Assembly: GCF_020091405.1 (NCBI RefSeq)
Contig: NZ_CP081903.1
Span: forward strand, 4,588,501-4,652,500
Direction of reading: 5' to 3'
DNA: 64,000 nucleotides
Source: Bacteroides cellulosilyticus
Lineage (GTDB): Bacteria > Bacteroidota > Bacteroidia > Bacteroidales > Bacteroidaceae
Part shown: positions 48,159 through 60,600 of the stretch, piece after piece
Layout of the letters: every line of letters starts with the position of its first letter
Position numbering within the stretch: position 1 is the first letter of the stretch
Notes under the pieces: generated by a model
Databases searched by the model: none
Told to the model about the DNA's origin: nothing
The model's input: only the letters and a program-made list of their open reading frames with translations
Translations under genes and position numbers: made by a program

Positions 48159-49052
48159 ATGGGAAAATTTATCAATCCGTTCACCGATTACGGTTTTAAG
48201 AAAATATTCGGCCAAGAGATTTCTAAGGATTTGTTAATAGACTTCTTAAATGATTTGCTGAAGGGTGAACGGGTGATAACAGATCTCACATTCTTGAACA
48301 ATGAACAGTTGCCTAAGTATAACGAAGGGCGAGGTCTTATCTATGATATTTATTGCTGCACCGATACCGGTGAAAAGATAATCGTAGAGATGCAGAATAA
48401 GTCTCAGTTGCATTTTAAGGAACGTGCGCTTTATTATCTTTCTAATGCGATAGTGCAACAGGCTGAGAAAGGGAATGAATGGCGGTTCGGTATTAAAGCT
48501 GTATATGGAGTTTTCTTTATGAACTTTTTATTTGACAGCAGTGTTAAATTGAGGACTGACGTCATCCTTGCCGACCGTGATACGGGTGAGTTATTCACTG
48601 ACAGAATGCGCCAGATATTTATAGCTCTTCCTCTTTTTCAGAAGGAGGAAGAAGAATGTGAGAATGATTTTGAACGTTGGATATATACATTAAAGAATAT
48701 GGAGACACTGAAACGAATGCCTTTTAAGGCCCGCAAGGCAGTCTTCGAAAAGTTAGAAGAAATTGCCGATGTGGCTTCTCTTAGTAAAGAGGAGCGTGAA
48801 CGTTATGAGAATAGTGTAAATGTATACCGCACTAATTTGTGTGTGATGGATGCAGCGAAAGAAGAAGGGCGTGAAGAAGGACGTCAAGAAGGACGTGAAG
48901 AAGGACGTCAAGAAGGTCTTGAGGAAGGTCTTGAAAAAGGACGTCAAGAAGAACGTCTTGCTAATGCTCGTAGCATGAAAGCTGAGGGAGCTGATTATGC
49001 ATTTATTTCTAAAATCACAGGCCTGTCAGAGGATGAAATCAGGAACCTATAG
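48159..49052 (+). CDS. Rpn family recombination-promoting nuclease / PD-(D/E)XK transposase-like protein
   Basis: This 297-residue protein opens with 'FINPFTDYGFKKIFG', the mark of the Rpn/PDDEXK_2 family. The nuclease core has Asp in 'LIYDIYCCTDTGEKIIVEMQNK' (about 65-86, D-x-ExQ). Residues ~236-266 are a degenerate EGRQ/EGRE coiled repeat, and the end 'YAFISKITGLSEDEIRNL' is a conserved tail. Rpn proteins cut DNA and promote RecA-independent recombination or act in phage defence. The gene is a single transcription unit, followed by a partial duplicate. Confidence 0.88.
   Translation: MGKFINPFTDYGFKKIFGQEISKDLLIDFLNDLLKGERVITDLTFLNNEQLPKYNEGRGLIYDIYCCTDTGEKIIVEMQNKSQLHFKERALYYLSNAIVQQAEKGNEWRFGIKAVYGVFFMNFLFDSSVKLRTDVILADRDTGELFTDRMRQIFIALPLFQKEEEECENDFERWIYTLKNMETLKRMPFKARKAVFEKLEEIADVASLSKEERERYENSVNVYRTNLCVMDAAKEEGREEGRQEGREEGRQEGLEEGLEKGRQEERLANARSMKAEGADYAFISKITGLSEDEIRNL
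48861..48954 (+). repeat. 12-bp coding minisatellite in the first Rpn gene
   Basis: Units near gaaGGACGTCAA (coding for EGRQ/EGRE) are repeated about eight times with small variation. The period is a multiple of three, so changes in copy number lengthen or shorten the coiled segment without frameshift. A similar 12-bp repeat is in the third Rpn gene at 56303-56364. Confidence 0.75.
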
Positions 49053-49571: not shown

Positions 49572-50567
49572 ATGATAAAAGTGATGAATACAGAAAGGAT
49601 TGAGAAAGATGACGGAAGGCTGGACCTTTCGCAGTATATGACGAAGGTCATTGACGAATTAAAAGAAGACAGGAGGTATCCTGCGGTGCATACCTACACC
49701 AGCACCCTGCACTCTTTTGCAAAGTTTTCCTGTGGTGCGATGCCCGTGAATGACGTGTTCACTCCCGGGCGCCTGAAAGCGTATGAGGACTGGCTGCTGC
49801 AAAGGCGGCTGAGTTGGAACACTATTTCCACCTATATGCGCACCTTGCAGGCGGTATATAACCGGTTGTCCCCACCCGGTACGCCGGAGCACAATGCTAA
49901 ACTCTTCGATGACGTGTATACCAAGGTGAAGTCGCAGACCAAACGTGCGTTGACTGAGGAACAGATGGGCAGGCTGATGCACACAGGTCTTGCCGTGCCC
50001 TGCGAAGAATTGCAACGCGCACAAGCCTATTTCCTGCTGATGTTCCTGCTGCGCGGCATGCCGTTCATCGACCTTGCCCACCTTCGCAAGAGGGATGTGC
50101 GCGACGGCAGGATTGTATACCGCCGCCACAAGACGGGCAAACAGATTACGTTGCGCATCCCCCGGGAAGCCTTGCCCTTACTGAAAGAGTTTAAGGATAA
50201 GGACGCTGCCTCCCTCTACCTTTTTCCTATATTGAATGATGCTCCGGAAGGGGAGGACGCCTTGTACAGGCACTACCAGAAAGCCTTGCGGAATTTCAAT
50301 AAGATGTTGGAAGCACTGGCAAAACGTCTTTTGCCCGGCATCAAAGTCAGTTCCTATACTGCGCGGCACACCTGGGCCACATTGGCCTACCATATAGGAA
50401 TGCCCATCGGAATCATTTGCCAGGCATTGGGACACTCTTCGGTTCGCGTGACGGAAACCTATCTGAAGCCCTTCGAAAATGAAAGAGTGGATAAAGCTAA
50501 TCGTAAATTGATTTCTACTGTTAGAAAAGGTAAATGGGGGAATGATATGAATTGTAATATGTTATGA
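49572..50567 (+). CDS. Tyrosine-type site-specific recombinase, probable invertase of the adjacent promoter
   Basis: This 331-residue tyrosine recombinase has a SAM-like N-terminal domain (about 25-120). The catalytic domain has Arg in 'LLRGMPFIDLAHL' (about 160), Lys in 'YRRHKTGKQI' (about 185), His/Arg in 'SYTARHTWATL' (about 262-266), His in 'ALGHSSVRVTETYL' (about 291) and the Tyr nucleophile in the same stretch (about 299). All six residues are present. It lies directly upstream of a 293-bp segment bounded by perfect 23-bp inverted repeats and a fimbrial operon. This is the arrangement of Bacteroides phase-variation recombinases, so the inversion role is inferred from context. Confidence 0.9.
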   Translation: MIKVMNTERIEKDDGRLDLSQYMTKVIDELKEDRRYPAVHTYTSTLHSFAKFSCGAMPVNDVFTPGRLKAYEDWLLQRRLSWNTISTYMRTLQAVYNRLSPPGTPEHNAKLFDDVYTKVKSQTKRALTEEQMGRLMHTGLAVPCEELQRAQAYFLLMFLLRGMPFIDLAHLRKRDVRDGRIVYRRHKTGKQITLRIPREALPLLKEFKDKDAASLYLFPILNDAPEGEDALYRHYQKALRNFNKMLEALAKRLLPGIKVSSYTARHTWATLAYHIGMPIGIICQALGHSSVRVTETYLKPFENERVDKANRKLISTVRKGKWGNDMNCNML

Positions 50568-50582
50568 AACAATATATTGCAA

Positions 50583-50921
50583 GGGAATTACTTATCAAGT
50601 AACGGAGCTTTGTGCCTGCAAAATTGAACATTATTTTTGATTCTCCAAAATAAAAAGTCTTTTTTTCACGTCAATAACTTAAATTTTATCCATTAATCTA
50701 TTTACAAACACTAAAAACATCTCATATTGCTCTTGATGCAAACTGAAAAGCACACATCGCTTTATCCATCTTTGATTCTTCAAAAACGGACTCTTCGTCT
50801 ATTTGCTTTACTTGTCGCAAAATAGGCTTCTTTTAAAGTAAAATTAGAATAATTGGTAAGAAAACGCTTTTTCTTTTTATGCCGGAAGACTGTTCTTCCC
50901 GTTACTTGATAAGTAATTCCC
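50583..50921. repeat. Probable invertible promoter segment with 23-bp inverted repeats
   Basis: Left arm 50583-50605 and right arm 50899-50921 are perfect inverted copies (core TTACTTATCAAGTAAC on the left). Each core has palindromic TTACTT/AAGTAA halves, as expected for a recombinase site. The enclosed 293 bases (50606-50898) code for nothing but carry a consensus promoter just inside the left arm. In the given orientation this promoter points at the fimbrial genes starting at 51051. Confidence 0.8.
50609..50639 (+). promoter_or_regulatory. Consensus promoter inside the invertible segment
   Basis: TTTG (50609-50612), 19 bases, then TATTTTTG (50632-50639): both boxes match perfectly. It begins three bases inside the left arm and reads to the right, giving a leader of about 400 bases that crosses the right arm. 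Inversion would turn it towards the recombinase and leave the fimbrial operon without this promoter. Confidence 0.65.
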
Positions 50922-50932
50922 CGCTTGCTGAG

Positions 50933-50951
50933 CCGTTACTTGATAAGTAAT
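50933..50951. repeat. Third copy of the recombination-site core
   Basis: Nineteen bases from CCGTTACTT onward repeat the right arm in direct orientation, 34 bases further right. It could allow alternative inversion or excision of a 34-bp unit. Confidence 0.7.
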
Positions 50952-51050: not shown

Positions 51051-52346
51051 ATGAAAAAAGAAGTATTTATAATCATTTGCGGCATTTGGCTCTTTTTGTT
51101 GCCGCCTTCCGTTTTTGCAGGCAAAGTAGCGGATACGGACGCGAACATGGATGCGGACACACTCCTTTGCCGACGCGACAGTTTCTTCCGCGAATCCCTG
51201 TTGCTATATTTCCGTTTCGACCGGTCGCTGATAGACAGCAACTATATGGATAACGGCAAGACGCTTGGTGCTTTTCACGTCCTGCTATCCAACAATACCG
51301 CCGCCTCACTTATCGACACTGTCTTCATCACGGCTTATACCTCTCCCGAAGGTGACAAGACGCACAATATCCGTTTGGCTGAACGTCGTGCGGATGCAGT
51401 GAAAGACTACCTTTCCGAAAAATATCCGGCCATCGAGCATCAGCGTATACTTACCGACCCGCAGGGGGAGAATTGGGCAGGGTTGCGCAGCATGATTGAA
51501 GAAGATGACTCCGTTCCCGACCGGGAAGAAGTCCTGATGATACTGGATTATGTAAAAGACCTCAACCGTTGCAAGGAATTGCTGAAACGGCTGAATTGCG
51601 GATATGCCTATACTTATATCCAAGACCGCATATTACCCCGGCTTCATATTACTGTCTGCACGGTGCAGATGAAGGATGTGAAGGGGATTGCCCTTTTGGG
51701 AAAGATAAAGGAAGAGGAGCGTGTTTTTGGAGGGATGACGAAGGAGAGTGGAACTGACCCTCTTCAATGGTTTCATTATGGGCAGCCATCCCTGTCCGTT
51801 CGCGCTTACCGTCGCCCCTTGTTTGCATTGAAAACAAATCTGTTGTTCGACGCTGCCTTAATGCCCAACATAGAGATCGAACTCCCCATCGGTAAACGCT
51901 GGTCGCTGAACGGCGAATATATGTTCCCCTGGTGGCGGCTGGATGGTGATAAATACTGTCTTCAGGTGCTTTCCGGTGGACTGGAAGGGCGTTATTGGTT
52001 GGGGAGACGTTCCAATCGTGAGGTGCTGACCGGACATTTCTTCGGAGTGTATGCGGGTGGAGGTAAGTATGACCTGCAATGGAAAGAGAAAGGCTACCAG
52101 GGAGAGTTTTTCATCGCTGCCGGATTGAGCTATGGCTGGGCACGTCGCATCGCCCGCAACCTGCACCTGGAGTTCAGCCTTGGCATTGGTCTGCTACGTA
52201 CCGACTACCGTCATTACCATGCCCGCGACAACTATCAGACGCTGCTCTGGCAGGAAAACGGAAATTATACCTGGCTTGGGCCTACGAAAGTAAAGGTTTC
52301 CCTCGTATGGTTGCTGACGCGCCGTAAAGCTGCTGGCAATAAATAA
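51051..52346 (+). CDS. OmpA-like / DUF3575 fusion protein of the second fimbrial operon
   Basis: This protein has 431 residues from the ATG at 51051, which opens a signal peptide (MKKEVFIIICGIWLFLLPPS). The longer frame to 50925 uses TTG and runs through the recombination sites, so it is rejected. An OmpA-like region (about 55-165, 'ITAYTSPEGDKTHNIRLAERRAD', then GENWAGLRSM) is followed by a DUF3575 barrel (about 245-430, 'FALKTNLLFDAALMPNIEIELPIG'). The first operon encodes these two modules on separate genes. It is the first gene under the invertible promoter and probably controlled by it. Confidence 0.83.
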   Translation: MKKEVFIIICGIWLFLLPPSVFAGKVADTDANMDADTLLCRRDSFFRESLLLYFRFDRSLIDSNYMDNGKTLGAFHVLLSNNTAASLIDTVFITAYTSPEGDKTHNIRLAERRADAVKDYLSEKYPAIEHQRILTDPQGENWAGLRSMIEEDDSVPDREEVLMILDYVKDLNRCKELLKRLNCGYAYTYIQDRILPRLHITVCTVQMKDVKGIALLGKIKEEERVFGGMTKESGTDPLQWFHYGQPSLSVRAYRRPLFALKTNLLFDAALMPNIEIELPIGKRWSLNGEYMFPWWRLDGDKYCLQVLSGGLEGRYWLGRRSNREVLTGHFFGVYAGGGKYDLQWKEKGYQGEFFIAAGLSYGWARRIARNLHLEFSLGIGLLRTDYRHYHARDNYQTLLWQENGNYTWLGPTKVKVSLVWLLTRRKAAGNK

Positions 52347-52410: not shown

Positions 52411-52782
52411 ATGCTTACACAACAAACCCAGAAAGCAATAGCTATCTTGCATGACATCGCCGGCCATCAGGCGCTTGCCGTAGAAAGTTATCATATCACC
52501 CCCGACGAACTTGCCGTCATGCTTGCCCGTCTGGAATGCCATAAAATAGTGAACCGCATCCCCGGTGCTCCGGTCGATAAAGAGACCTCTTACCAACTGT
52601 GTCGTCCGCTTAACGACATTTCACTACTGGATGTACTGGAAGCGACCGGCGAGCATTTGAACTGCAACCATCCCACCACCGAGGCCTTCTACTCCCGTTA
52701 CGGGCGTGTGGCGTCGAAGCTGGGTGTGGTGAACCATATGACACGCCTGTATCTGTCAGAGATAAAGTTGGTTGACTGCTGA
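52411..52782 (+). CDS. Rrf2-like winged-helix protein
   Basis: This 123-residue protein's pattern 'ITPDELAVMLARLECHKIVNRIPG' followed by 'SYQLCRPLNDISLLDVLEATGEHLNC' follows the recognition-helix/wing and 'isLldVleA' region of Rrf2-type regulators. The Rrf2 iron-sulfur cysteines are not evident (Cys only in 'LNCNH' and at the end). It lies in the phase-variable fimbrial operon and could regulate it or an unlinked target. The assignment is by pattern only. Confidence 0.55.
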   Translation: MLTQQTQKAIAILHDIAGHQALAVESYHITPDELAVMLARLECHKIVNRIPGAPVDKETSYQLCRPLNDISLLDVLEATGEHLNCNHPTTEAFYSRYGRVASKLGVVNHMTRLYLSEIKLVDC

Positions 52783-52822: not shown

Positions 52823-53845
52823 ATGAAAGATACAGTATTTAAGTCGGGACATTATAGCCGGATACGACCGTTGCCGTGGCTTTTTGCGCTGTCGTGGCTT
52901 TTGTGCTTCTTTGCGTCGTGTGAGCGTCGCGAACTGACTTACTATATGGAAGCCGAAATCACAGTAACAGCCGATTGGAGCCATGCGGGAGTGCCGGAAG
53001 AGAAAGACGACGGTGCTACGCTGGTCATCTTCCCTCAGGATGGCAGTGAGCCCCGCGTGATATTGACGGGCGAACGTGAACGTACCACCGTGCGTTTGCC
53101 GCGAGGGACTTATGATGCCATACTCTTTAACCGTTCGTTCACCGATTTCAGCAACCTCCTGTTTACTGGAATGGAGTCTCTGAAATCGCTCGAAGCGTAT
53201 GCTAAAGAAGTGGTGACCCGTGCCGATACGCGTGTTATCATCTCTTCGCCCGACAAACTGGCATCGGGCACGGTTCGGAACTTCGAAGTGACGGATGACA
53301 TGCTGGGCAACTATGCCCCTCCGGCAGCACGGGGTGTCTGTCCCGAAGGTGCATGCAGGATGCACTTCACGCCCACGCCGCTTACCCGGCACATCCGGGT
53401 GACGCTGAACGTGAAAGGTCTGCACAATGTAAGCGAGGTACGTTGCACGCTGGGTGGAGTGCCTCTTTCGGTCTTCCTTCACGACGGGCATGCGGGGGAG
53501 GAATTGGGCGGCCAGCAGTTCACGGTGGGCAATCCGGTTTTTGCCGAAGGCTCGTTCACCGACGGCCATCTGACGGGAGAGCTTGATGTATTCGGCTTCG
53601 ACCGCTCGCTGTCACATTCTATTGCGCTGAAAGCGCAGCTGGTGGATGGCAAGACGGTGGTGGAGCAAATGCTGACGGACATAATGGTGGAAGAAGAAAC
53701 GGATAGTGCCGGAAACATTACGCTTTCTATAGATGCCTCTGTTCCCGAAACTTTCCCCGATGTGAAACCTGAGGGCGGTTCCGATTCGGGCTTCGATGTG
53801 GATGTGGATGAATGGGAAGACGAAGAAGTGGATGTTCCGGTATAA
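52823..53845 (+). CDS. DUF5119 / FimB-Mfa2-like fimbrial anchor lipoprotein
   Basis: This 340-residue protein has a long N-terminus and lipobox FASC (Cys33). The following 'ERRELTYYMEAEITVTADWS' is the usual opening of DUF5119 proteins, which occupy the FimB/Mfa2 position in many Bacteroides fimbrial operons. The C-terminus is acidic ('DSGFDVDVDEWEDEEVDVPV'). It precedes the first fimbrillin of this operon by 70 bases and probably anchors the fimbria; that is inferred. Confidence 0.8.
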   Translation: MKDTVFKSGHYSRIRPLPWLFALSWLLCFFASCERRELTYYMEAEITVTADWSHAGVPEEKDDGATLVIFPQDGSEPRVILTGERERTTVRLPRGTYDAILFNRSFTDFSNLLFTGMESLKSLEAYAKEVVTRADTRVIISSPDKLASGTVRNFEVTDDMLGNYAPPAARGVCPEGACRMHFTPTPLTRHIRVTLNVKGLHNVSEVRCTLGGVPLSVFLHDGHAGEELGGQQFTVGNPVFAEGSFTDGHLTGELDVFGFDRSLSHSIALKAQLVDGKTVVEQMLTDIMVEEETDSAGNITLSIDASVPETFPDVKPEGGSDSGFDVDVDEWEDEEVDVPV

Positions 53846-53915
53846 ACAGACCGCCGGAACAGACCTGAAGTTATCAATGAAACTCTTTTTTATTAATTAA
53901 AATATGTATCAATTT

Positions 53916-55076
53916 ATGAAAACGAAAAGTTTACTTTTAGTAGCGGCAGCAGCCATGACTATGGCAAGTTGCTCGCAAAATGAGATTGTAGAGACAAATC
54001 CGGACGCTAACCGTGCCATCGGATTTGGAGTGTACACGGGAACGCAGACAAAAGGGCTGGTAACGGACAATTCAACAACGGATGGCGTTACCGCCAACGG
54101 TTTGAAGGTGGATAGCAAAGGCTTCGGTATTCTTGCGTATCAGACGGATGGGGACTATAACACTACCAATCCGAAAGGTCTTTTTATGGACAATGTGCAT
54201 GCTACTTGGGAGAGCGGAGCGCCGGGCAGTTGGAAATATCTTCCTGTTAAATTCTGGCCTACTAACACTAGGGACAAAATTTCATTCTTCGGCTATGCTC
54301 CTTTTACTACCGCTGCCACAGGAACTCCAAGCGCAAACGGCATAAAGATAACCAATGCGACAGCTTCGGAAGACCCGCTTTTGGAATTTACATTGCAGGA
54401 TAATCAGAAGGATATGGTGGACTTGGTGGTATCGAATGTGAAAGACCAGCTGAGTACTACGGCCGGTGGCAAAGTCACTTTTGAATTTAAACACGCGCTT
54501 ACCCGTGTGGCAATGCATGCTAAGACCAGTGTGGCTACTAATGCCGAAACCAAAGTGTACATCACCGGCATCAAACTGAAACATACTACGAAACTTGCCA
54601 AGAAAGCCACTTTTGATATGAATGACGCCACATGGACACTTCCGGCAACGTCTCCCGGAAATGATTATTTGACAGCTGATTATGCCATTGCCGCAACTTC
54701 TGCCAATGGTGTGCTGAAACTGGCAGATCCTAACTGGAAAGGCTATACCACGCCTGCCGTTGAAATTAATTCAACAGACGCCAACCTGTTTACTGACAAC
54801 CAATATCTGTTCTTCATTCCTATTGGCGGAACAACAGGTACCAGCGGAACCAGTGATGTAAAAGCTGAAATTACTTATGACATCGTTACAGCTTCTTCTT
54901 CCGATGCGTCTGTAAAATCTTCTCACACCAAAGAGGTGGATTTGGGAACAGGTGTATTTAAACAAGGCAAAGCCTATAAGTTCACGTTTACAATTACGTT
55001 GAATGAAATTAAGGTGGATGTATCGGACTTTAATTGGGATAGTCCTGAAGAAGGTAAAGACGTACCAGTCAATTAA
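53916..55076 (+). CDS. Fimbrillin family lipoprotein
   Basis: This protein has 386 residues from the ATG at 53916 (MKTKSLLLVAAAAMTMASCS, lipobox MASC, Cys19); an ATG four codons upstream is less likely. The fold marks 'AIGFGVYTGTQTKG', 'WKYLPVKFWPTNTRDKISFFGYAPF' and 'GKVTFEFKHALTRVAMHAKT' are those of fimbrillin-family subunits. It ends 'IKVDVSDFNWDSPEEGKDVPVN', typical of the strand-accepting C-terminus. It is the likely major subunit of the second operon. A 1.6-kb Rpn-containing unit separates it from the next fimbrillin. Confidence 0.87.
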   Translation: MKTKSLLLVAAAAMTMASCSQNEIVETNPDANRAIGFGVYTGTQTKGLVTDNSTTDGVTANGLKVDSKGFGILAYQTDGDYNTTNPKGLFMDNVHATWESGAPGSWKYLPVKFWPTNTRDKISFFGYAPFTTAATGTPSANGIKITNATASEDPLLEFTLQDNQKDMVDLVVSNVKDQLSTTAGGKVTFEFKHALTRVAMHAKTSVATNAETKVYITGIKLKHTTKLAKKATFDMNDATWTLPATSPGNDYLTADYAIAATSANGVLKLADPNWKGYTTPAVEINSTDANLFTDNQYLFFIPIGGTTGTSGTSDVKAEITYDIVTASSSDASVKSSHTKEVDLGTGVFKQGKAYKFTFTITLNEIKVDVSDFNWDSPEEGKDVPVN

Positions 55077-55336: not shown

Positions 55337-55430
55337 TTCACCACAGAGTAACACAGAGTATCACAGAGTTTAATCAATTTGAAATCAAAAGAATAGAACT
55401 CTGTGATACTCTGTGTTACTCTGTGGTGAA
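55337..55430. repeat. Perfect 34-bp inverted repeat (CACAGAG family), left
   Basis: Arms 55337-55370 and 55397-55430 are perfectly complementary and consist of repeated CACAGAG words. The 26-base loop is AT-rich. Similar CACAGAG-rich hairpins are widespread in bacterial genomes as MITE-like repeats. Confidence 0.85.
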
Positions 55431-55504: not shown

Positions 55505-55593
55505 TTTGTGCTTCTGTACAGTCCCTGTAAGACTCCGTTTTTTGGCGAGTCTAGGAGCACCTTTTAAAATTATTCACTAAACAGCAATTGATT

Positions 55594-56478
55594 ATGAAAT
55601 ACTTAAATCCCAGAGCCGACTTGACCTTCAAACGGGTCTTTGGCGAACATCCCGATTTGGTAATGAGCCTTCTGAACGCTCTACTTCCTTTGACCGCCAA
55701 TCAGGAAATCACCGATATCGAATATCTTCCTTCGGAGATGGTTCCCGAGAACCCGTTGCGTAAGAACAGCATCGTCGACGTCCGTTGCAAGGACAAGCAA
55801 GGACGGCAATTCCTGGTGGAAATGCAGATGATCTGGTCTCCCGAGTTCAGACAGCGCGTATTGTTCAACGCTTCCAAGGCATACGTGCGCCAGATAAACA
55901 CCGGCGAAGAGTATGAACTGCTACAACCTGTGTATTCACTGAATCTGGTCAATGAGGTCTTTGAACCGGAACTGGAGGGTTATTATCACCATTATCAGAT
56001 GATTCATGTGGAGAATACGGATAAAGTGATTGAAGGTCTTCAACTGATTTTTGTGGAACTGCCCAAATTTACCCCGCATACGTTCTCTGAAAAGAAGATG
56101 CAGGTGCTCTGGCTGCGTTACCTGACTGAAATCAACGAACATACCCGCGAAGTGCCGGAAGAACTGATGGCGAATCCGGAAGTGAAAAAGGCGGTTGATG
56201 CCCTGGAAGTATCAGCGTTTACGGATGCACAGTTGGCAGGATATGAAAAGTTCTGGGATATTATCAGTGTAGAGAAAACACTGTATAATAGTGCGATACG
56301 CAAAGGGCTGGCGGAAGGGCTGGCGGAAGGTATGGAGAAAGGTATGGAGAAAGGTATGGAGAAAGGAAAAGCGGAGGAGCGTCATCTCATAGCTTTCAAT
56401 TTTAAAAAGCAAGGAGTTTCTTTTGAAGTGATCTCCCAATGTACAGGATTGTCAATAAAAGAAATAGAACTATTGTAG
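55594..56478 (+). CDS. Rpn family recombination-promoting nuclease / PD-(D/E)XK transposase-like protein
   Basis: This protein has 294 residues from the ATG at 55594 (MKYLNPRADLTFKRVFGEHPD); the frame upstream begins with TTG only. The nuclease core has Asp in 'SIVDVRCKDKQGRQFLVEMQM' (D-x-ExQ, about 62-82). The C-terminal end has a 12-bp coding repeat (GMEKGMEKGMEK, about 243-258) and the tail 'ISQCTGLSIKEIELL'. It is in a different subgroup from the gene at 48159 but has the same architecture. The gene and its promoter are enclosed by nested inverted repeats, unlike the other Rpn genes here. Confidence 0.88.
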   Translation: MKYLNPRADLTFKRVFGEHPDLVMSLLNALLPLTANQEITDIEYLPSEMVPENPLRKNSIVDVRCKDKQGRQFLVEMQMIWSPEFRQRVLFNASKAYVRQINTGEEYELLQPVYSLNLVNEVFEPELEGYYHHYQMIHVENTDKVIEGLQLIFVELPKFTPHTFSEKKMQVLWLRYLTEINEHTREVPEELMANPEVKKAVDALEVSAFTDAQLAGYEKFWDIISVEKTLYNSAIRKGLAEGLAEGMEKGMEKGMEKGKAEERHLIAFNFKKQGVSFEVISQCTGLSIKEIELL

Positions 56479-56671
56479 TAAAGCATCGGGCATTGACGTC
56501 TGATTGTTATGTTTACCCGCCTGTTTTGATTGTTCCAATATGCCAAATGGACTATTGTTCTTTGGTGTATTGGACTTTTCTTATTAGAGAGGCGAAGTGA
56601 GGAGTTAAAGGAGTTAACTCCTCAAAAAGACAAATTATCATCTCACTCAAATCGGAAAAGAAAGGAATTAT

Positions 56672-56764
56672 TTCACCACAGAGGACACAGAGAGCACAGA
56701 GGTTATAATTATCTCTGAATTAGAAGTCTAAAAACTCTGCGTTCTCTGTGTCCTCTGTGGTGAA
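56672..56764. repeat. 30-bp inverted repeat (CACAGAG family), right
   Basis: Arms 56672-56701 and 56735-56764 match at 28 of 30 positions around an AT-rich loop. The remaining gap from 56479 to 56884 has a GAGGAGTTAA/TTAACTCCTC stem at 56599-56623 and no gene. Confidence 0.85.
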
Positions 56765-56884
56765 TTGATTCATAACCCTACAAGAAGGAGCCAAATTTAA
56801 CTCCTGATTTGCATAAATCATAAATCTTCTCGTTTCCAGCATGCTTCAAAGCGTGTAGACCTTATTTTTTAGAAACGTAAGATT

Positions 56885-58570
56885 ATGAATGTAAGATTTA
56901 GGACATGGATTTTAGCGTTGCTTCCCTTTTTCCTTTCGGCATGCGGAGGCAGTGCATCCCCTGGTAGCGACGAGCCATCCGGCCCCGTTCCCATCGGTTT
57001 TTCTCCCGCGGTAGAGGCGCAGACGCGCGGAACAGACTATAATAAAAATAACCTCCCCTCATTGGGAGTGTTGGCTTACCTTACGCAAGGAAGTGAATTC
57101 ACCCCCGCATCTTCCACTCCCAACTTCATGTACAATCAGGAAGTGACGAAGGCTGGCAGCTCATGGACGTATACCCCTATAAAGTTCTGGCCTGCCAACA
57201 GCAACGATAAACTTACTTTCTTCGCTTATGCGCCGCATAACGCCACAGGACTGACACTGCCGGGAAGCACCGATGCAGGATATCCCTCATTCACCTACGA
57301 GGTGAAAGCCACGGAAGCAGAGCAGACAGACCTGCTGTTGGCATCCCCTGTGCTCAACCAAACAGCTGGTGCCGGTACAGTCAATTTCTCCTTCAAGCAT
57401 GCACTGACACGGGTTGTTATCAATGTGGAGGCGGGAAGTGGTTTTACGGGAGTAACCATCAACTCCCTTTCCATCAAAACCAAGAAAACCGGTACGGTGG
57501 CCTTCAAATCCCCCACATCTGTGGGTGCTACCGACTGGATGCAATGGAGCAATATAGCCTCCGGAGCGGAAAACGACATATCCTGCGCCGCCACCTTACC
57601 TTCCTCTTCCAGTACCGTAACAGCCGGAGCTACCCAAAAGATAGCAACTTTCTTTTTGTTGCCCGTAGCCGCTACGAGCGCTGCGTCTGAAAAGGCCACA
57701 CTTAGCTTCACTTATACGATGAATGGAGTAGGAGACACAAGAACTGTGACCGACCTAGAGCTGCCTTCCCCGGCCGACTGGTTGCCTTCTACTTCAATCA
57801 CCTATAACCTGAAAATATCAAGGGATGCAGTGACGGCAGAGGTAAGTAGCATCAGTGTATGGAGCGGAACAAACGTAAATATGGATAAGGGTGGAGAGAT
57901 AGCGGAAGGATATAAAGCAGAAGATATTAAAACAGGAGATTACTATTATAACGACGGAACCTGGAGTGATGGCGGCTATCGTGTGCTGACCGACGGGACG
58001 GCACTGCAATACAGTATACCACCGATGGCAGGTAAAACGTGCATCGGCATCGTATATGCCAATGGTAAAACGGGAGAAGAGCGTGAAGACAATATATCGA
58101 AATATAGTGGTACGGGACTAAACGGAAAAATAAGAATACAAGGCTATGTCGTAGCTCTGGATATAACATCCGGTGTGAAAAGAGGCGGAGATACAGGGAG
58201 TGTTTCTACTAATGCAACCGCTTTCACCGGCTATTCAGATTCGCAAACCCTTAGTACAGATAAGGGTACCAGTCCCCTTCAGGTGCTTGCGGCGCTGGAA
58301 ATCTTTAATGCTGCCATTGCAGCACCCGCTTTCACCAGTGGCTGGTATTTGATGTCGGCGGGACAGACCAAGTATGCATATGAAAATAGGGCTGTCATTA
58401 ATAAAAGTAGAAAGGCTATAGCTGGTTATAATGATATGGATTTTGATAATCTTTGGACAAGTTCATATAACGTTACAGGTAATGGCTATTTTGCAATTTT
58501 CAAGAACGGAGCTTTCGACGATTCGCAAAGCGATGCCGGGCATCCGATTTATCCAGCTTTTACTTTTTAA
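56885..58570 (+). CDS. Fimbrillin family lipoprotein
   Basis: This 561-residue protein has lipobox LSAC (Cys20). Fimbrillin marks are 'PIGFSPAVEAQTRGTDYN', 'WTYTPIKFWPANSNDKLTFFAYAPH' and 'GTVNFSFKHALTRVVINVEA', closely parallel to the fimbrillin at 53916. The C-terminal half (about 350-561) adds a second domain with 'NDGTWSDGGYRVL' and 'ALEIFNAAIAAPAFTSGWYLMSAGQ', resembling Lcl_C-like tip modules. It may be a tip or minor subunit. It follows the Rpn unit and lies 12 bases before the next fimbrillin. Confidence 0.83.
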   Translation: MNVRFRTWILALLPFFLSACGGSASPGSDEPSGPVPIGFSPAVEAQTRGTDYNKNNLPSLGVLAYLTQGSEFTPASSTPNFMYNQEVTKAGSSWTYTPIKFWPANSNDKLTFFAYAPHNATGLTLPGSTDAGYPSFTYEVKATEAEQTDLLLASPVLNQTAGAGTVNFSFKHALTRVVINVEAGSGFTGVTINSLSIKTKKTGTVAFKSPTSVGATDWMQWSNIASGAENDISCAATLPSSSSTVTAGATQKIATFFLLPVAATSAASEKATLSFTYTMNGVGDTRTVTDLELPSPADWLPSTSITYNLKISRDAVTAEVSSISVWSGTNVNMDKGGEIAEGYKAEDIKTGDYYYNDGTWSDGGYRVLTDGTALQYSIPPMAGKTCIGIVYANGKTGEEREDNISKYSGTGLNGKIRIQGYVVALDITSGVKRGGDTGSVSTNATAFTGYSDSQTLSTDKGTSPLQVLAALEIFNAAIAAPAFTSGWYLMSAGQTKYAYENRAVINKSRKAIAGYNDMDFDNLWTSSYNVTGNGYFAIFKNGAFDDSQSDAGHPIYPAFTF

Positions 58571-58581
58571 AATAACATATA

Positions 58582-60600
58582 ATGAAAAGAATCGCAGAAA
58601 AAATAATCTTATTGGCACCTCTTGTGTCGCTGTTTATGTCTTGCAGCCCGGAGTTAGAAGATACTTCCGAAATGACAATTGCCTCCTTGCAAGTCACGCT
58701 CAACGGCTTTCGTGGCAGAGTAGATACACGCGCACAAGAAAGCGGATACCAAACTTCCTTCACGGGAGAGGAACAAATAGGGGTTTTCGCCTTAAAAAAC
58801 TCCGGTAATGTCATTCTGGAAAACAATGTTCCTTATAAGTATAATGCTGCCGGAACATGGCAACCCGCCAATACAAACAATCAGATCCATGTATACGGCG
58901 CCGGCATTACTTACTATGCCTATTATCCTTACAACGGCAGTATGAATGATAAGAAGAGCGTTGCGGAAATAACCTCCGCATTCACCCCTCCGGCAGACCA
59001 GAGCGACTATGCTAAATATACCTCCGCCGACCTGATGACAGGCGCAGGTACACTTAACGGTGGCACATTGGCTTTCTCTTTCACGCATGCCATGTCTTTG
59101 ATAGAGATCCAGATTAATGAAACGAGCAATTCGGATGCTCCGTATGATCCTGCTCCTGTGTTTTATGGCATGGCTCCTTGGAAGATGCCGGATGGGATAT
59201 ACCGCTATCTTGTGCGTCCCGGCGCAGACGCTGAAGTTGCATTTGACTATGGTCCTGCCGACAACCGCTACGCTTATCAGAAATCCCTTGCGGCTGCCGA
59301 TGTTAAGGCAGGAAACTATACACGCATTGCGGCTCCTTTCAAAAATTTCTCTATGACGTTGAATACGGGAAGTTATGTAGCCACCACATTGGGCCCGGTT
59401 TCAAAAGTGATAGTAAATGGAAATACATATACTGCAACTGCGGTCGGTGGAAGTAGTAACGAATATATATTGAATGGACTGAGAAAAATTCCGGAACCTC
59501 TCGCTTCCTTCGATGTTTATATCACCGATAATTTGGCAAAAGCGGAGAGTAAAGAGCAATTGCTGGTTTCTGCCACCACTACCAATCTGACAGTAAATGC
59601 TAACACCTTGACAGTGACCTTGCCGCTAAGTGCAGGCGGCATGGAAGGGGCAGGTACGGAGGCTGATCCGTATCGGGTGACAACTCCGCCACAGCTGAGG
59701 GGAGTAGGAAAGGAGGGAACGGAAAATGTCGAGGCGGAAACAGAGTGCTATGTACAAACCCAAGATATAGATTTAAATATGTATGCCAATTGGAAACCGG
59801 TGAAAAGTGGATTGTTATATGATGGCAAGGGTTTTAAGATTAGCAATCTGAAGAGTACACGAGGAGGAATATTTTCCTATTGTGGAGGGACGATACAAAA
59901 TGTGCATCTTGCTTCCGGAGAAATAAAAGTTAGTGGTATATCAGTTGGAGGTATAGTGAATAAAAGCGATAGGTCCGGTTGCAAAATCCTCAAATGTAGT
60001 AATGCGGCTACTATTGTATCAACTAATGGTGGCGATGTCGGCGGTGTAATAGGTGAAGGTAGACATTGCATCATCGAATATTGTAAAAACTCTGGAAATG
60101 TCACGGCAGATGTATATGGTGGCGGTGTTATAGGACTTACTTGGGGGAACCAGATAGATCCGGGTAATCCTGGTATGGATACGGAAATAAGGTATTGTTA
60201 TAATACTGGCACAATAACCAAAAGTAATGCGCGTAACGGTGATGGACATTGTGGCGGGATATTGAGCCGTCTGGTTAGAACATTGGTCATGGAATATTGC
60301 TATAATGCCGGGCAAATAATAGATAATGGTAGCAATAATGCGATAGGAAGTCTCACTGGAGAATTAGATAATAGTTATTCGAGAAACAATTATGGAATTT
60401 CTATTCCAAGTGTTCAGCTGCATTGTACCAATAATAATGGATCTTCAACCAATGACGCCTTTTTTGATGACGGCAACAATAAATGGCCTGTATATAGCAC
60501 TGATTCATCTAATGGTTGGGGAAGTGCACACTGGAAATCTTACAGCCAGGGAAAATATCCCAAGTTGCTATGGGAACCGAACGAAGAAGAAGGCTTATAG
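58582..60600 (+). CDS. Fimbrillin family lipoprotein with GLUG-like repeats
   Basis: This 672-residue protein has lipobox FMSC (Cys21). A fimbrillin N-terminal half ('TLNGFRGRVDTRAQESGYQT', 'GTLAFSFTHAMSLIEIQIN') is followed from about 355 by 'GAGTEADPYRVTTPPQLRGVG'. Repeated 'GGIVNKS', 'GGVIGEG', 'GGGVIGL' units (about 410-600) have the beta-helix-like GLUG pattern seen in adhesins. The architecture suggests an adhesive tip protein; the ligand is unknown. It is the last fimbrillin of the second operon. Confidence 0.83.
   Translation: MKRIAEKIILLAPLVSLFMSCSPELEDTSEMTIASLQVTLNGFRGRVDTRAQESGYQTSFTGEEQIGVFALKNSGNVILENNVPYKYNAAGTWQPANTNNQIHVYGAGITYYAYYPYNGSMNDKKSVAEITSAFTPPADQSDYAKYTSADLMTGAGTLNGGTLAFSFTHAMSLIEIQINETSNSDAPYDPAPVFYGMAPWKMPDGIYRYLVRPGADAEVAFDYGPADNRYAYQKSLAAADVKAGNYTRIAAPFKNFSMTLNTGSYVATTLGPVSKVIVNGNTYTATAVGGSSNEYILNGLRKIPEPLASFDVYITDNLAKAESKEQLLVSATTTNLTVNANTLTVTLPLSAGGMEGAGTEADPYRVTTPPQLRGVGKEGTENVEAETECYVQTQDIDLNMYANWKPVKSGLLYDGKGFKISNLKSTRGGIFSYCGGTIQNVHLASGEIKVSGISVGGIVNKSDRSGCKILKCSNAATIVSTNGGDVGGVIGEGRHCIIEYCKNSGNVTADVYGGGVIGLTWGNQIDPGNPGMDTEIRYCYNTGTITKSNARNGDGHCGGILSRLVRTLVMEYCYNAGQIIDNGSNNAIGSLTGELDNSYSRNNYGISIPSVQLHCTNNNGSSTNDAFFDDGNNKWPVYSTDSSNGWGSAHWKSYSQGKYPKLLWEPNEEEGL

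Follow-up and report, generated by a model that had tools for sequence, protein, structure and literature searches.

Organization of the locus

The window analyzed here, a stretch of 64,000 nucleotides from the single-contig, 6.94 Mb genome of Bacteroides cellulosilyticus (NZ_CP081903.1, positions 4,588,501 to 4,652,500), contains a tyrosine recombinase gene followed by a short segment bounded by inverted repeats and by a cluster of fimbrial genes. The features of this locus are listed below in window coordinates, with genes described by their profile matches.

49572 to 50567, plus strand: tyrosine recombinase of 331 aa, likely an invertase (PF00589, Phage_integrase; PF13102, Phage_int_SAM_5)
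50583 to 50605, plus strand: left inverted-repeat arm, core TTACTT-ATC-AAGTAA
50609 to 50639, plus strand: predicted promoter TTTG-N19-TATTTTTG, toward the operon, perfect consensus
50619 to 50649, minus strand: predicted conserved promoter TTTG-N19-CAATTTTG, away from the operon, ending 13 nt inside the left arm; taken as the OFF-state promoter
50858 to 50875, no strand: conserved palindrome AAGAAAA-CGCT-TTTTCTT with covariation, close to the promoter-distal arm
50899 to 50921, minus strand: right inverted-repeat arm (inner right site)
50933 to 50951, minus strand: third site copy of 19 nt (outer right site), offset by +34 bp from the right arm
51051 to 52346, plus strand: first operon gene, OmpA and DUF3575 (frame open from 50925 with TTG; ATG at 51051)
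52411 to 52782, plus strand: small gene whose Rrf2-like match is weak and falls under the curated cut-off
52823 to 53845, plus strand: DUF5119 protein
53904 to 55076, plus strand: operon gene without a Pfam match
55588 to 56478: Rpn-type (PDDEXK_2) transposase-family gene inside the fimbrial cluster
56885 to 58570, plus strand: Mfa_like_1, fimbrillin-like protein
58582 to 60600, plus strand: Mfa_like_1, fimbrillin-like protein

A repeat search on the window recovered the arms as perfect 23-nt inverted repeats with 293 nt between them, and the window ORF list holds no frame of at least 100 aa inside that segment. These results bear out the arms and non-coding interior described in an earlier note on this DNA, and the recombinase frame was likewise confirmed to end 15 bases before the left arm. 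The arrangement is that of an inverton, with inverted repeats around a non-coding segment beside an invertase gene, and, as in Tsr19-type switches, an extra site lies beside one arm. The interval assigned to the switch in the earlier note (50583 to 50951) was correct, but the 19-nt third copy that falls inside it, direct to the right arm, had gone undescribed. Each of these recombination sites is an imperfect palindrome. Eight inverted-repeat pairs of at least 18 nt within 1 kb (seed 12) were identified in the window, and only the two pairs of the switch locus have arms more than 50 nt apart. Together with the perfect arms and the 97 family segments described below, this survey rules out chance repeats. 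Elsewhere in the window, positions 2688-2749 form an inverted repeat with perfect 28-nt arms around a 6-nt loop, which may be a terminator.

The downstream genes, with two Mfa_like_1, one DUF5119 and one DUF3575 protein, identify by their content a Bacteroides fimbrial (type V pilus) operon. The transposase-family gene within it is bordered by long imperfect hairpins (55337-55430 and 56665-56771), and a second Rpn-type (PDDEXK_2) gene lies at 48159-49052.

The recombinase reading frame is intact and its profile match to the family is clear. The earlier note credited it with all catalytic residues, which stands for K187, R265, H288 and Y297. It does not extend to the full canonical R-K-H-R-H-Y set: an alignment to the XerC-like chain 4a8e places Pro164 in the Arg I column, which we take to have a catalytic role in tyrosine recombinases, with R161 three residues upstream, and Tyr262 in place of the His of HxxR. 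Among 26 aligned members of the recombinase family, the Tyr is present in all and R161 in 22. Since the deviant pattern is common to the family, it is a deviation of the family and not of this gene, and the window recombinase has the look of a typical family member, not of an inactive one.

Conservation of a predicted outward-facing promoter

The two promoters predicted at the left end of the segment overlap and face opposite ways. The plus-strand element matches a pattern found three times in the window, against 0.27 expected from shuffles, and its -7 box is perfect; that of the minus-strand element agrees with the textbook TAnnTTTG in 7 of 8 counted letters. Related loci were compared at two depths. 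Recombinase matches at E<=1e-60 were present in at least 78 of 158 genomes of the genus among the matches listed, and the better ones among these supplied the 126 loci of the wide survey. A recombinase match was found in 125 of them; 23 without a repeat under the rule applied and five identical ones were dropped, leaving 97 segments. The left arm lies a median of 10 nt after the recombinase stop codon, 91 of the 97 segments measure 250-300 bp, and the longest downstream frame of at least 150 codons is on the plus strand in 86 and on the minus strand in 6. A closer set comprised 21 segments with recombinases of about 50% identity or more; it includes near duplicates (L095/L098, L051/L097 and L095/L099/L100), so its segments are not independent.

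Of the 21 close segments, 18 have an outward TTTG-N19/20-nAnnTTTG no more than 25 nt from the left arm (0.05 in shuffles) and three lack it under this strict form, and no outward promoter was detected at the right arm in any of the 21 (0.02 in shuffles). The wide survey gave the same picture: 85 of 97 segments, the window included, have a TTTG-N18-21-nAnnTTTG that faces outward over the left arm and leads away from the operon (0.47 in shuffles). It faces outward over the right arm in 2 (0.2 in shuffles) and lies at neither arm in 10, a class that includes L084, a whole-genome copy of the Bacteroides stercorirosoris locus L020 that was measured from its outer left site. Allowing one mismatch in the -33 box raised the calls to 92 left and 3 right and left 2 with neither (2.9 left and 1.4 right in shuffles); with 3 right-arm calls against 1.4 in shuffles, this looser rule is by itself no proof of an ON orientation.

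Of the 85 left-promoter segments, 62 begin the -7 box with C and 16 with T. The usual box of the conserved promoter is hence CAnnTTTG, and the CAATTTTG of the window is its common form. When a perfect TAnnTTTG is demanded, outward left promoters drop to 3 of 21 close and 16 of 97 wide segments, and all 16 segments with the textbook box carry the promoter at the left arm. Consensus and conservation both predict an outward-pointing promoter inside the segment on the minus strand (50619-50649). The plus-strand element, which the earlier note had read as the promoter driving the fimbrial genes, does have a perfect sequence, but among the 21 close segments it occurs in no more than two, that of the window and that of L020, the nearest relative. 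Because conservation was weighed above the match to consensus, we read the window as OFF: here, as in most of its relatives, the conserved promoter faces away from the operon, so that the ON call made earlier is probably mistaken.

Inversion among related segments

Three loci were called ON by promoter position: L126, L183 and, under the looser rule, L081. The first two sit before long lipoprotein-like ORFs, which presumably resemble the Bacteroides S-layer/BT1927 protein family. All 64 minus-strand alignments between segments have an ON-called locus on one side and a locus that is OFF or unclassed on the other; the sole plus-strand alignment that involves an ON locus joins two ON loci. Orientation by promoter and orientation by alignment, two independent calls, thus agree. 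In two comparisons, L135 with L183 and L081 with L083, the flanks are collinear on both sides and a segment of about 300 bp is inverted, at 87% and 84% identity, respectively. Inverted segments of 95% identity were also found in L168 and L183, two loci of one assembly with 4% estimated contamination; their recombinase sides are only 82% identical, so these are probably paralogous loci. A looser E-value added one short minus-strand match of 66 nt, between L030 and L037, alongside a full-length plus-strand match. Comparison of segments hence places both orientations between related loci of the wider family and indicates that inversion does occur there. No flipped copy was found in the close subclade, where 51 of 51 alignments among the 21 segments are plus-strand.

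Extra sites and neighboring copies

The closest named relative found was B. stercorirosoris DSM 26884 (L020), with a recombinase 95% identical to that of the window. Its locus carries a double site on the left and a single one on the right, the mirror image of the window, where the left site is single and the right one double; the spacing is 34 bp in both, and an 11-nt stretch of the spacer is common to the two loci but inverted. Two inversions, the first between the left and the outer right site and the second between the new inner pair, would explain this change of side and would pass through an ON state, which is indirect evidence of inversion in the window's own subclade. Sites duplicated independently might match in number, but would hardly account for the inverted spacer. 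In L091 the right site is double, again at 34-bp spacing but with another spacer sequence. The survey count of extra sites, 2 of 97, omits L084 and L050, the double sites of L020 and L050 having been seen on direct inspection. L050 is a more distant switch of the same genome as the window (about 6771630-6771980), with a recombinase of 38% identity, the core TTACTTCGTAAGTAA and a double left site at 30 bp spacing.

A second copy of the switch, L049, also lies in the window's own genome (5461000-5475000). Its segment is 96% identical over 280 bp and in the same orientation, its recombinase is 78% identical, and the 18-nt site cores are identical. Its DUF3575 gene has an internal gap, which breaks the first gene, and an AAA-ATPase_like gene lies further on. 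Since the two loci share sites, cross-talk or a large inversion between them is conceivable, as a speculation. Across 14 relatives that include L049, the first one or two downstream ORFs encode DUF3575 in 7, DUF5119 in 1, a BspA-type LRR protein in 1, and other products or none in 5.

A palindrome near the promoter-distal arm

Near the promoter-distal arm, the palindrome at 50858-50875 covaries strongly in an alignment of 16 close segments (of the 21, L020, L049, L051, L090 and L098 were excluded), with a score of 0.478 compared with 0.186 for shuffles and at most 0.266 for slid structures, while its further pair types were matched by 40 of 500 shuffles. RNAalifold folded only 6 pairs, at -0.57 kcal/mol, stem length in single sequences was mostly no better than in shuffles, and G-U against A-C counts of 12 to 9 gave no strand signal. 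The element is perhaps a terminator.

A model for the switch and its alternatives

Taken together, the data make it likely that the locus is an invertible promoter next to a recombinase gene, set before a Bacteroides fimbrial operon and captured OFF in the assembly. The phase-variable switch proposed in the earlier note is in this respect well supported by comparison, while its ON orientation is not. Under this model, the adjoining tyrosine recombinase would act on the TTACTTATCAAGTAA sites and rarely invert the 293-bp segment. In the assembled form, the conserved promoter inside the left arm would fire leftward, toward the 3' end of the recombinase gene; after inversion it would lie just inside the right arm and fire into the DUF3575 and fimbrillin genes. 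The third site would allow two ON forms, since recombination of the left with the inner right site would leave two sites between promoter and gene, and that of the left with the outer right site only one. We infer the inversion of the window locus in living cells, the part played by the adjacent enzyme, the activity of either promoter and the response of the operon.

Two other accounts merit consideration. According to the one in the earlier note, the window shows the ON state and the plus-strand promoter reads across some 260 bp of the segment to drive the operon; a variant has both overlapping promoters working, with the operon transcribed either way and inversion swapping only its leader. 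The perfect consensus of the plus-strand element, identical letter for letter in L020, speaks for it, but that element and the conserved minus-strand promoter overlap, and its preservation in L020 is therefore not independent. It is also restricted to that pair of close segments, its -33 TTTG has been lost in the second copy L049, and the covarying palindrome sits between it and the operon. The plus-strand promoter may also work, but the account as a whole appears improbable to us.

We hold it less probable still that the switch is frozen, its repeats and recombinase being remnants that no longer invert. The single orientation of all 21 close segments, the transposase gene in the operon region and the broken first gene of L049 would fit such a decay. 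Against it, the recombinase has kept its frame and the residues of its family, the arms are perfect, and the extra site has swapped sides relative to a close relative; three reports moreover describe switches with a strong OFF bias that still flip (PMC4747536, PMC3090145, PMC12548429). An invertible promoter assembled OFF thus remains our preferred reading.

Comparison with known switches

Promoter flipping in Bacteroides, to which the earlier note appealed, was indeed already known: published switches of this type serve capsule/EPS and surface proteins (PMC3090145, PMC4747536, PMC12548429). The IVp-I promoter of Tsr19/BF2766 in B. fragilis, which controls a large capsule (EPS), is OFF in all three genome sequences and was detected in both orientations by PCR, and its repeats are duplicated at one end in NCTC 9343 and at both ends in YCH46 (PMC3090145). 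It was about 1% ON in an inoculum, the number of repeats between promoter and gene was reported to correlate inversely with transcription, and recombinase supplied from a plasmid removed the OFF bias (PMC4747536). By description, the window resembles it in having a tyrosine recombinase gene directly beside the promoter segment and an extra repeat. Unlike the window, the Tsr19 switch controls polysaccharide genes, and it has a distant site of action as well.

As for fimbrial loci, one report cites a phase-variable B. fragilis locus later recognized as fimbrial (PMC12632263), and another relates inverton groups 137, 112 and 122 to fimbrillin genes and counts group 137 among those associated with site-specific integrase genes (PMC11892184). 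In the B. fragilis locus L030, the recombinase and arms are followed by Mfa2-type and DUF3575 genes, and our guess is that this is the published locus. The gene order of the window differs from that of the fimbrial invertons in placing DUF3575 first, and the likeness drawn here is one of gene content. The BT1927 S-layer switch of B. thetaiotaomicron has an invertible promoter between repeats that repeat mutation can lock, and in rich medium roughly one cell per 1,000 expresses it (PMC12548429); it too is likened by description, controlling an S-layer lipoprotein gene where the window has a fimbrial operon. Of 96 metagenomic cases of invertible resistance-gene promoters, only 4 are reported as predominantly ON (PMC8748976). 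The type of switch is therefore already known, and what is new is the window locus itself, with its orientation corrected. A literature search returned no publication on this locus by title, which is no proof of absence from print.

The minus-strand promoter ends about 50 bp from the recombinase stop codon. A speculative and rather unlikely idea is that the OFF state stabilizes itself: the outward promoter would fire convergently into the recombinase gene and lower the recombinase in cis; facing the other way in the ON state, it would let the recombinase rise and flip the segment back. Such a lock would explain the excess of OFF assemblies (85 of 97 strictly, 92 of 97 under the looser -33 rule), and it fits the abolition of the IVp-I OFF bias by plasmid-supplied recombinase (PMC4747536). 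Among the papers listed for an antisense lock, those that mention Bacteroides make no mention of antisense, with the same reservation about print.

Implications

The corrected call matters in practice, for experiments built on the ON reading would otherwise be reversed, and it illustrates that orientation can be read from sequence through relatives rather than from one perfect promoter match. The OFF bias of the family and an extra site that changes sides also make two questions accessible to test, namely what holds these switches OFF and whether pilus expression depends on how many sites there are; if the OFF state did prove self-stabilizing, the third site, being movable, would lend the switch two levels of ON.
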